In this document: positions 20,163-55,962 of the stretch, piece by piece
Position numbering within the stretch: the stretch's first letter is position 1
How the letters are laid out: every line of letters begins with the position of its first letter
Position numbers and translations under genes: made by a program
The notes under the pieces: generated by a model
The model's database searches: none
Told to the model about the DNA's origin: nothing
The model's input: only the letters and a program-made list of their open reading frames with translations
Source: Planctomycetota bacterium
GTDB taxonomy: Bacteria > Planctomycetota > MHYJ01 > JACQXL01
Reading direction: 5' to 3'
Length of the DNA stretch: 64,000 nt
Assembly (NCBI GenBank): GCA_016235865.1
Contig: JACRIK010000035.1
Span: forward strand, 1 to 64,000

Positions 20163-20732
20163 ATGCCTAAGATTTATGTAGTTGACAACGGCGGGCAATG
20201 GACCCATCGCATCTGGCGGGTCTTGCGCGAACTGGACTGCGACACCAAAATCATCCTCAATACCACCCTGCTGAAGGATATTGATGCCGATGGATTAGTC
20301 CTGAGCGGCGGCGCGGCCCGAATTGCCTGGGAATCGCTCAAATTAGGCGAATGCACTACTTACTTCAAGGAATTCAAGGGCCCTATCTTAGGCGTCTGCG
20401 TCGGACACCAGTTAATGGCTTCATATTATGGCGGCAATGCCGGCGCTTCTGAAATGCCTGAATTCGGACTCTCCAAGATACGCATCTTAGAACCAGATGA
20501 CCTGTTCAAAGGACTGCCTAAGGAATTCAATGTCTGGCAGTCGCACAACGACGAGGTCAAGTCAGCGCCGGGATTCACGGTCCTGGCTGAATCGGACAAC
20601 TGCAAAATCCAGGCCATCAAGCACCACACCAAACCGCACTACGGCGTCCAATTCCATCCCGAAGTGAACAACACGGAAAATGGCGAAGCTATATACCAAA
20701 ACTTCGTTAATATCGTGGCCGGGATGCGATAA
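20163..20732 (+). CDS. guaAa: GMP synthase, glutamine amidotransferase subunit (split type)
   Basis: Class I glutamine amidotransferase of 189 residues that supplies ammonia to the ATP-pyrophosphatase subunit. The nucleophile elbow is GVCVGHQLMASYYGG (Cys about residue 79), with the His-Glu pair in GVQFHPEVNNTENG (about 163-176). The opening IYVVDNGGQWTHRIWR is typical of archaeal GuaAa. It follows guaAb after the GTTAC box array. Its last codons (NFVNIVAG) are duplicated, degraded, at 22063-22214 beyond the ATPase gene. Confidence 0.92.
   Translation: MPKIYVVDNGGQWTHRIWRVLRELDCDTKIILNTTLLKDIDADGLVLSGGAARIAWESLKLGECTTYFKEFKGPILGVCVGHQLMASYYGGNAGASEMPEFGLSKIRILEPDDLFKGLPKEFNVWQSHNDEVKSAPGFTVLAESDNCKIQAIKHHTKPHYGVQFHPEVNNTENGEAIYQNFVNIVAGMR
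20700..20724 (+). repeat. Direct repeat at the guaAa 3' end (copy 1)
   Basis: 25 bp from AACTTCGT to GTGGCCGGGA match 22081-22090 plus 22192-22206 with one mismatch, once the 97-99 bp element in copy 2 is removed. Similarity extends upstream to GGCGAAG at equal spacing. May be an attachment-site-like junction for the segment between the copies. Confidence 0.6.
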
Positions 20733-22053: not shown

Positions 22054-22062
22054 CCATCACCC

Positions 22063-22214
22063 GGCGAAGAAATATATAGGAACTTCGTCAACCCCGCACA
22101 TAATATTTGTATAAATGTTATAAGATTGAACAATACAATTTATTAGATACCACTATTGACAGATAAATAATAAAGGTTATGTGCGGGGTCAATATCGTGG
22201 CCGGGAAGAAATAG
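22063..22214 (+). pseudogene. Duplicated guaAa 3' end, interrupted by a small element
   Basis: Reading across 22063-22090 and then 22192-22214 gives GEEIYRNFVN IVAGKK and a stop, matching the guaAa C-terminus GEAIYQNFVN IVAGMR. The reading is broken by the 99-bp element at 22091-22189. It has no start and is a fragment only. Confidence 0.7.
22091..22189. mobile_element. 99-bp element with 13-bp terminal inverted repeats (copy 1)
   Basis: Begins ACCCCGCACATAA and ends TTATGTGCGGGGT, perfect inverted repeats, flanked on both sides by CA, fitting a 2-bp target duplication. The guaAa 3' end serves as an approximate empty site. The AT-rich interior has no gene and differs from that of copy 2 (53772-53868). 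It looks like a non-autonomous MITE or REPIN-like element; no transposase is in the window. Confidence 0.7.
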
Positions 22215-26324: not shown

Positions 26325-26376
26325 TGACCAACGGAGTACGGTTCTATCAATTCCAAAAACCATTTCAAGGCATACC

Positions 26377-26816
26377 TCCCTATACCCTATAGGTATATAC
26401 CCTACACCTACTAGGGGAATACCCTACTCCCACTAGAGGCATACCCTACTCCCACTATAGGCATACCCTAGACCTACTACCATACTACCCTATACCCCAT
26501 ACTATACCACCCCACACCCTATAGGTTTATATCCTATACCTACTAGGGGACTACCCTAGACCTACTGGGGTATTACCCTATACCTACTGGAGGACTACCC
26601 TAGACCTACTGGGGTATTACCCTATACCTACTAGAGGACTACCCTGGACCTACTGGAGTACTACCCTATACCTACTAGAGGGATACCATAGACCTACTAT
26701 AGTATTACCCTATACCCACTATAGGACTACCCTAGACCTACTAGAGGCATACCCTAGACCTACTACCATATTACCCTACACCGTATAGATATGTATCCTA
26801 TACCCTATAGGGGGCA
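26377..26816. repeat. 22-bp tandem array 1 (20 units)
   Basis: Twenty consecutive diverged units, each exactly 22 bp with no gain or loss over 440 bp. Most contain ACCCTATACC or ACCCTAGACC followed by TACTAGAGG or TACTGGGG. Several units carry a short dyad: TACT-AT-AGTA (unit 15), TACT-GG-AGTA (unit 13), CCTATAGG (units 1, 7 and 20). Stops occur in most frames, so it is not a protein repeat. It begins 53 bp after pnkp. Confidence 0.9.
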
Positions 26817-26881
26817 TAGAGTTATTTGCCCCAAATATCCGTATTTTTCTTAAAGACCCCCTTCATATCGTAAAAGCTACG

Positions 26882-27299
26882 GGAGATTATCGCAAATCCG
26901 GCCGGTCATTATGGCGCATCCGGCCGAGGATTATGGCGCAAACGCACGGAGGTTATGGCGCATCCGCACGGAGATTATGGCAATTCTGGCCGGAGGTTAT
27001 CGTAAATCCGTCCGGTAGTTATGGCGAATCCGCCGGGAGATTATCGTAAATCTGGCCGGGAGTTATGGCAAATCTGCGCGGAGGTTATGGCGCATCCGCC
27101 GGGAGGTTATCGTAAATCCAGCCGGACATTATGGCGCATCCGGCCGGGAGTTATGGCAAATCTGCACGGAGATTATCGTAAATCCGCCGGGAGGTTATGG
27201 CGCATCTGGCCGGGGGTTATGGCGAATCTGGCCGGAGGTTATGGCGCATTGTATGGGTGGTTATGGCGAACAGGATGGGGGGTTATGGTGAGGGGGGTG
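26882..27299. repeat. 22-bp tandem array 2 (19 units)
   Basis: Nineteen diverged units of exactly 22 bp, with a sequence unrelated to array 1. Core GGTTATGGCGCATCC, alternating with a TTATCGTAAATCC version. At most unit junctions there is a dyad TCCGGCCGGA, TCCGCACGGA or TCTGGCCGGA. The period is not a multiple of three; plus-strand open frames across it encode 22-residue repeats but look incidental. Confidence 0.9.
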
Positions 27300-27400
27300 G
27301 GGGGACTATCCCCCCTCTTTGTAAGAGGTTGATTTATAAGGGGATAGGAGAGGCGAAAACACGAAAAACGGGCATTTTGGGTCTAAAAATGGGGGTATTT

Positions 27401-29381: not shown

Positions 29382-29446
29382 ACAATACCTCCTCTGGCGC
29401 CGAAGCGCCATGGCGCCCTTATGGCGCCACTTTCTTAATAAAGTTA

Positions 29447-29742: not shown

Positions 29743-29842
29743 GATTCTGTGATTTATTGTGAATTCCGATAAGAATAAATTACCTTGGTGCCTTTTGGCG
29801 CCATAAGGGCGCCATGGCGCTTCGGCGCCAGTGGCTAATATC

Positions 29843-53285: not shown

Positions 53286-53750
53286 TTAGTAATCATGCGG
53301 CGGTTTAGAAGGCAAATCCGGGTCTATGGTATGATCGAACTTGTCCTTGATGTCATCCATGGTCTGCTTGGGGACAAAACGGGTATGCAGCCAGTAACAT
53401 AAATAAAGGAAGAAACCGATAATGATGATGAATTCAAACGGACTGAAGACCTTGGGGGTAATACAGGCATTGATGGTATCGGCAATCCCACTGACCACTC
53501 CCTGCAAAATAGGTATCTTCTTGTAACTGGACAGGAAATCAGCCGCAATCTTGACGCCCTTGACGCCGATTAACACCGCGGCAAACAGCGCGCCGAAGAA
53601 AGCGATATTCCGGCCCAGGAAACCTCTCAGCAAACGTTCGGTCATGCGCCAGACCAGCCAGACCAGTCCGGCCGTGGTCGCGCAGGCAAAAAGAAACGCC
53701 ACTACGCTATCAACTATCTGCCAACTTGTCGGTTCTGTCATACTAAACAT
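53286..53750 (-). CDS. Multi-helix membrane protein of unknown function
   Basis: 154 residues with three hydrophobic segments (about 12-33, 43-63 and 104-122) and a cytoplasmic-type acidic C-terminal tail (DDIKDKFDHTIDPDLPSKPP). It weakly recalls CvpA-like colicin V production proteins in size and layout, but no signature is firm. It ends a few bases before miaA, so probably co-transcribed. Confidence 0.55.
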   Translation of the reverse strand: MFSMTEPTSWQIVDSVVAFLFACATTAGLVWLVWRMTERLLRGFLGRNIAFFGALFAAVLIGVKGVKIAADFLSSYKKIPILQGVVSGIADTINACITPKVFSPFEFIIIIGFFLYLCYWLHTRFVPKQTMDDIKDKFDHTIDPDLPSKPPHDY

Positions 53751-53771
53751 TCCTTTCCTTTAAAGGGGTCA

Positions 53772-53868
53772 ACCCCGCACATAATAAACATTTTAAGTAT
53801 CTCATCATCTATCACCAACGGCTTAACCACTTTCCATCAAGATTGTTACCATCATTTATGTGCGGGGT
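53772..53868. mobile_element. 97-bp element with 13-bp terminal inverted repeats (copy 2)
   Basis: Same ends as copy 1 (ACCCCGCACATAA and TTATGTGCGGGGT), same CA flanks, similar size, but an interior that does not align with copy 1. Lies between a membrane protein gene and the TPR gene promoter. Confidence 0.7.
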
Positions 53869-53890
53869 CAATTAAATACCGCTAAAAAAC

Positions 53891-55224: not shown

Positions 55225-55962
55225 AACAAAGGGGGTCAGGGGGTTGTGGGCATTTCTAAGGGGTAATTCTTACCGCAACTTATTAAACTTCATAGAGTTA
55301 GGTTATCTTACCCTTATGTCTGTATTTCTTCCCCGGAGTCCCGGATTTCTTTCCGGGAGTCCCGGATTTCTTTCCGGTAACTACGGATTTCTTCCCTGTA
55401 ACTACAGATTTCGTCCCGGTAGCTACGGATTTCTTCCCCGTAACTACAGATTTCTTCCCCGTAACTACGGATTTCTTCCCTGTAACTACAGATTTCTTCC
55501 CTGTAACTACGGATTTCTTCTCCGTAACTACGGATTTCTTCCCTGTAACTACGGATTTCTTCCCCGATGCATCGGAATCTTTCCGCCCTAAGACGGAATC
55601 TTTCCACCCTAAGACGGAAACCTTCAGCCCCTGGGGATAAATCACTTGTTTATGGCCTGTAGTCAATCGGCTCTGGCTTATAGTCAACTGTCTATGACTT
55701 ATAGCCAATCATCCCTGACTCAGGTATAATCATCCTTGAACCAGGTACAGTCGTCCCTGACTCAGGTACAGTCGTCTCTGACCCAAGGGGATGTCCTTAT
55801 AACCCGTGGCGATGCCGCGAAGCTCATAGAAAGGTGAATAAGGAAGGGTAAAAGGCTGTCTTGGGAAAACGCAGGCCTGGAAGTCAGATATTTAAGGAGT
55901 TACAGAGGCAGGTGGGTGTCACCGGCCCTTGAATTCCCGCTTGCCCGCTTGGAACTTAGGCG
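55225..55962. other. 738-bp gene-free stretch holding the 21-bp array
   Basis: Contains the tandem array (55324-55785), then about 180 bp without recognisable features. Long open frames on both strands over the array (heptapeptide repeats) follow from a 21-bp unit lacking stops; no start signal or export signal supports a real protein. Confidence 0.5.
55324..55785. repeat. 21-bp tandem array (22 units)
   Basis: Twenty-two units of exactly 21 bp that drift in sequence along the array. Early units share ATTTCTTCCC plus a dyad: CCGTA-AC-TACGG (units 7, 10), CTGTA-AC-TACAG (units 4, 8), CCGGGA-G-TCCCGG (unit 2), CCGATGCATCGG (unit 12). Late units (16-22) use TAGTCA...TGACT-type dyads. Paired changes in the two arms suggest the dyad is kept. 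Confidence 0.9.

Follow-up and report, generated by a model that had tools for sequence, protein, structure and literature searches.

Correia elements, the MITEs of Neisseria, lie mostly upstream of genes and carry sigma70-like promoters, as described in the accessible part of the review PMC10969869. The repeat family analysed here resembles them in layout only, being short, bounded by inverted repeats, present in many copies, mostly situated just upstream of genes and associated with sigma70-like promoters, whereas its ends, its TTGAC target with TG duplication, its taxon and the existence of a GIY-YIG-bearing version are different; neither "GIY-YIG" nor "nuclease" occurs (0 hits each) in the accessible part of that review, which mentions no nuclease partner. 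REP/REPIN sequences with their RAYTs share with the family hairpin ends that are scattered over intergenic sites and recur around a nuclease gene; on the other hand, the enzyme is here GIY-YIG and not Y1, there is no GTAG head and the Y1 genes of the genome have other ends.

A further parallel is offered by free-standing GIY-YIG genes and by the rRNA genes of CPR bacteria, whose GIY-YIG insertions are, according to the accessible text of PMC11270868, neither group I nor group II introns and are found beside many short ORF-less insertions. A small GIY-YIG gene in a non-intron insertion and short ORF-less versions are also seen here but, unlike in the CPR rRNA genes, inverted ends bracket the gene, many unrelated sites with only a short target are occupied and MITE derivatives exist; "inverted repeat" has 0 occurrences in the main text of PMC11270868 as far as accessible. 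The insertions of the CPR rRNA genes may be of the same kind as the elements described here. As to the protein, the closest solved relatives by sequence of the nuclease at locus L105, discussed below, are UPF0213/small GIY-YIG proteins (PDB 1zg2 and 1ywl), hypothetical proteins to which the search matches attach no mobile-element role. No description of a bacterial element made of inverted ends and a lone GIY-YIG gene was recognised in a literature search of partial coverage, outside which lay most subscription papers and bioRxiv.

The explanation preferred here, to which a probability of about 0.6 is assigned, is that the family represents the MITEs of a minimal GIY-YIG element, of which the nuclease would be the mover.

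Ends and interiors of the repeat family

The window, i.e., the whole 64,000-nucleotide stretch of Planctomycetota DNA that was analysed, contains two copies of the element. Copy 1 (99 bp, 22091-22189, minus strand in the TTG..TGAC reading) begins with the left terminal inverted repeat ACCCCGCACATAA at 22091-22103 on the plus strand, preceded by CA at 22089-22090, and ends with the right repeat at 22177-22189 on the minus strand, followed by CA at 22190-22191. Copy 2 (97 bp, 53772-53868, minus strand) lies between a minus-strand gene (53286-53750) and a plus-strand gene, its repeats being at 53772-53784 (plus) and 53856-53868 (minus) and its CA dinucleotides at 53770-53771 and 53869-53870. Coordinates, perfect 13-bp inverted ends and CA on each side of both copies are thus as given in the initial annotation, made from the sequence of the window. 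Exact matches to the ends occur in the window at four places, namely the ends of copies 1 and 2, and matches with up to three mismatches (20 against 17.7 expected) are at chance level.

In the whole genome the exact 13-bp ends are found 38 times and their backwards control 0 times, the corresponding numbers with up to one mismatch being 73 and 4. The search for inverse end pairs that the initial annotation had recommended yielded 39 paired elements of 27-168 bp, 24 of them long (82-168 bp) and 15 shorter hairpins (27-69 bp), after removal of a chance long match at L053, of pairs >170 bp and, at L020, L035 and L047, of nested alternative pairs; the catalogue also excludes seven solo ends. A length of 95-99 bp is shared by 17 of the 39, all among the long elements, and both ends are perfect in 13/24 long elements; three long copies (154, 155 and 168 bp) seem to have further repeats within them. 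The orientation of L012, L015, L026, L029 and L051 was set by default, not fixed by TG/CA flanks.

Read on one strand, with slashes at the element borders, the long form is TTG/ACCCCGCACATAA-(ATRATGTTAATAA)-variable-TTATGTGCGGGGT/TGAC. Among the 24 long elements (at least 80 bp) TTG stands on the left in 20 and TGAC on the right in 15; TG is present on both sides in 17/24, one of which could be the element's own, and in just 1/15 of the short hairpins. The 2-bp target duplication proposed earlier holds as far as CA/TG on both sides is concerned, a pattern equally fitting an element that carries one CA/TG itself. Departures from the end consensus that affect both sides are complementary in nine cases out of ten (~0.6 expected if independent), so that the two ends change as a pair, and for each of six copies at most one of 200 shuffles folds as well as the single-strand DNA of the copy itself. 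Short, without a coding gene, with terminal inverted repeats, in many copies and with a short direct repeat of the target, the elements have the make-up of MITEs.

The interiors diverge fast beyond ~30 bp, as illustrated by L013 and L018, which are identical over 31 bp and then unrelated. The unlike interiors noted earlier are confirmed for copies 1 and 2 and do not extend to the whole family, in which the first ~15-30 bases after one end constitute a shared, diverged motif; the two window copies are not alike in this motif, copy 1 resembling L020/L028. When 19 interiors were searched against the genome each found only itself and weak matches (best non-self E 0.037, to the family member L018), a result that disfavours their capture from elsewhere in the genome. 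Identity with a known RNA family was likewise rejected, Rfam having given, for 12 loci at E up to 1, four matches, of which none reached its family cut-off or could be placed inside an element. A subfamily of 55-56-bp hairpins (L025, L033, L041, L047 and a copy upstream of a gene in L182 of G002) combines the same ends with a loop that is better conserved, lacks the TG flanks and is present in two genera.

Insertion sites and promoter-like content

Copy 1 interrupts a duplicated guaAa 3' end, whose left part (22056-22090, plus strand, outer limit approximate) and right part with the stop codon (22190-22213, plus strand) flank the element, the latter being a direct repeat with 20706-20731. The intact guaAa-like glutamine amidotransferase gene (20163-20732, plus strand; Pfam GATase) provides the empty-site reference: removal of copy 1 and of one CA yields a tail reading GEEIYRNFVNIVAGKK-stop, to be compared with GEAIYQNFVNIVAGMR-stop in the intact gene, i.e., the near-empty site that had been claimed. 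At the second locus, an orthologue of the downstream gene was found in six of the eight other genomes searched; in all six a TTGACA/TTGACT-type promoter is located upstream and in 6/6 the 97-bp element is absent, contrary to the constant presence in relatives that would have spoken against insertion. In G002, a sister genus, a 55-bp hairpin bounded by CCCCGCACATAA lies further down at this locus, and G006 has upstream a different element, GTCA/ACCCCGTTAGAG..CTCTAACGGGGT/CAAC, with the same flank pattern and other ends. Exact long end pairs were found in 0/39 other genomes searched, G002 having the 55-bp version. To judge from these sequence comparisons, insertion at the two loci is well supported, and the MITE-like mobilisation in trans suggested by the initial annotation agrees with the many dispersed copies, the near-empty site of copy 1 and the absence of copy 2 from relatives.

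A same-strand gene is present near the right end of 22 of the 24 long copies, the exceptions being window copy 1, whose orientation relative to TTGAC is reversed, and L013. Relative to the right end, the called starts of these 22 genes lie between −98 and +109 bp, distances that are rough because gene starts are mechanical calls. Where the neighbours form a tandem gene pair, the element is codirectional in 11/12 cases (P ~0.003), or in 8/9 without the three tandem copies of unfixed orientation. Behind the right TTGAC of 15 elements the mean −10 score is 3.15 against 1.20, a level reached by 1/1000 shuffled flanks. Furthermore, a −10-like motif occurs inside the element, about 17 bp in: in 14/20 the left TTGACC is followed, at the extended −10 position, by TGnTA (shuffle mean 0.4, maximum 4), an excess that, the copies being related, shows conservation. 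The two observations together indicate that the TTGAC target is usually a promoter −35 box and that the element brings its own −10.

In copy 2 the insertion has created a promoter-like pair (53842-53871, minus strand; 9/12 matches), consisting of TTGACC, with TTG from the target and ACC from the element, and of the −10-like TAACAA/AACAAT, the spacing found being TTGACC-18-AACAAT. Only a short stretch, with no evident −10, separates the right-hand TTGAC from the gene at 53286-53750; the element may now serve as the promoter of this gene, whose orthologues in the six relatives lie behind a TTGAC promoter. Elsewhere in the window, direct repeats with units of 22 bp and 21 bp form long arrays at 26356-27310 and 55285-55785, and a 39-bp inverted repeat (29391-29429 / 29796-29834) is 97% complementary with its arms 366 bp apart.

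GIY-YIG genes between inverted ends

The genome of the window contains 11 GIY-YIG matches, two of which, L105 and L104, lie within inverted ends. At L105 (C12:23495-23787) a GIY-YIG gene is enclosed by 20-bp perfect inverted ends, ACCCCGCACACACTTTGCAT, and the unit splits the frr/thiC junction (names assigned by eye from translations), which reads here ATATG/ACCCC..GGGGT/GATACAG, so that both genes keep their stop or start; the ATGA overlap is intact in G002 (ATATGA) and G003 (GTATGA). L104, with ACCCAGCCCCTCCT ends, also sits between two genes, the start of its nuclease ORF being within an ATGA overlap. Between the ends of L105 and those of the commonest short form, the match extends over 10 of the 13 bp. 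A closer link is provided by the short element L048, located in TTG/TGG, which has the 20-bp ends of L105 save two positions, each changed in both arms, and an exact one by the Colwellbacteria genome G042, in which the end type ACCC[AC]GCACATAA is found on seven short copies and on one nuclease copy. In G002 a nuclease 57% identical to that of L105 lies in the related ends CCCCGCACACAGTTTGCCTAT.

Tight inverted repeats surround the gene at 29/70 GIY-YIG loci of several genomes, against 11/255 shifted control positions, the same test finding no such repeats at the other 41/70. Both end-flanked proteins scanned match PF01541 (GIY-YIG; E 1.1e-14), and Y3, Y5, Y16, G18, R26, H30 and E50 are invariant in eight aligned end-flanked proteins, which places the protein of the unit in the GIY-YIG nuclease superfamily. 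Hardly any two of the copies seen have the same insertion site, a finding that speaks against simple homing; where identical copies were found at two places (L161 and L162 in G148), their flanks were identical too, so that they are probably part of a larger repeat.

The recurring inverted end CCCGTTAGAGA is found around GIY-YIG genes at L169, L171, L163 and L124 (G005, G002 and G043), i.e., in several genera and one Patescibacteria-type genome. G043 also has GIY-YIG genes in ACCCCGCCCTTTC and ATCCCGTTAGAGAA ends, as well as 30-bp, 99-bp and 163-bp versions of an element with the variant end ACCCCTCACATAA (L091-L094). A scan of GTDB contigs with the exact pair gave four loci, three of them in Patescibacteria-type genomes and one in a "bacterium", and these genomes hold further copies with paired variants such as ACCCAG..CTGGGT. 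Spread in viruses was discarded after 0 matches for three patterns in viral_contigs, and a tmRNA/tRNA identity of the Patescibacteria loci after none was found in eight loci. At L089, L090 and L065-L068 (Patescibacteria-type) the element is framed by two hairpins, one adjoining the gene before it and the other (GCTC...) ahead of the following ATG; in several of these copies a small ORF with a shared MC[GW]VL stretch was seen by eye to end near the next start codon, a position that suggests translational coupling. Five other small GIY-YIG genes of G000, the genome of the window (L098, L099, L101, L102 and L106; C12, C19, C26 and C30) adjoin tRNA genes (Pro/Gly, Lys, Arg, Ala), with tRNA sequence pieces repeated beside the gene at L102 and L106; these look like a second, tRNA-targeting group.

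Origin of the family and its significance

According to the preferred reading, the short hairpin-ended elements would be non-autonomous, their target would be TTGAC, in most cases a promoter −35 box, and insertion would leave TG on either side (CA when read on the opposite strand). The TTG of the target and the first bases of the element would rebuild the −35 (TTGACC) and, with the −10-like motif ~17 bp inside, the element would serve as a promoter directed at the gene. A unit of 0.26-0.31 kb, in which one small GIY-YIG gene lies between ends of the same type, is probably the autonomous form; its nuclease would cut the ends, their hairpins or the target, thereby mobilising the short forms. Against this reading count the match of the L105 ends over 10 and not 13 bp, the 41/70 GIY-YIG loci without tight repeats, the identical flanks of the identical copies, the TG flanks missing from most short hairpins and the far greater divergence of the interiors than of the ends, unlike in a recently active MITE; use of the promoter by the host may help to keep the ends. 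The GIY-YIG gene could also have come into a pre-existing hairpin as a passenger.

The latter thought leads to a rival explanation in which the short elements are MITEs of another transposase, unseen since it was lost or unassembled, and GIY-YIG homing genes settled in the hairpin loops as harmless sites. Free-standing homing genes are known from neutral sites, and the assembly, a draft of 38 contigs, is 96% complete; yet among the 73 ends no two otherwise unpaired ones face each other with transposase-sized room between them, different end families each have their own GIY-YIG gene and the nuclease unit has itself been inserted cleanly at TG, so that this explanation seems rather unlikely. As for the transposase expected within the same ends, the initial annotation had proposed, as a guess, REPIN-type elements moved by a RAYT. 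The genome does have two Y1_Tnp genes, RAYT-like and near contig ends (L159 and L160; C27 and C33 of G000), with truncated tandem pieces at L160. Their borders, however, carry GGGGACAGACCACATATTT, ACCCCGCACATAA is present in neither fetched locus and neither gene is flanked by the hairpin of the family, whereas according to the accessible text of PMC2817692 a RAYT gene invariably lies between two REPs that are in inverted orientation and have a GT(A/G)G head. The RAYT was therefore rejected as mobiliser, this origin being very improbable; what lies between ends of the same type is the small GIY-YIG nuclease gene.

That ends are conserved and interiors are not, that 17/39 elements measure 95-99 bp and that nearly all long elements lie upstream of genes would also be understandable if the end pairs were binding sites of a regulator, with a half-site between −35 and −10 and an inverted one ~84 bp downstream, selected on ~20 promoters and immobile now. 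Plain operators would not be expected to have TTG and TGAC outside both ends, and the insertion of copy 1 into a coding fragment, the relatives without the element, the complementary changes in the two ends and the nuclease-bearing versions all make this improbable. Mobility and regulator use may also have come in sequence, with insertion first and use later.

A more general proposal, tentative and with odds slightly below even, is that such units constitute a class of minimal autonomous mobile elements of 260-306 bp, with inverted hairpin ends (mostly CCC..GGG) and a lone nuclease of ~75-90 residues, which would occur in this lineage and in Patescibacteria, insert at stop/start overlaps and −35 boxes, breaking neither, and shed promoter-carrying MITEs. 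The idea that the GIY-YIG gene is the mover is directly testable with one gene of ~90 codons and a 97-bp substrate. If true, few self-moving DNA elements of bacteria would be as small as these, and a transposition-like role would be added to homing and repair, for which this nuclease family is mainly known. The elements also illustrate how an insertion can hit a −35 box or an ATGA gene overlap, leave both neighbours functional and in this way rewire promoters.
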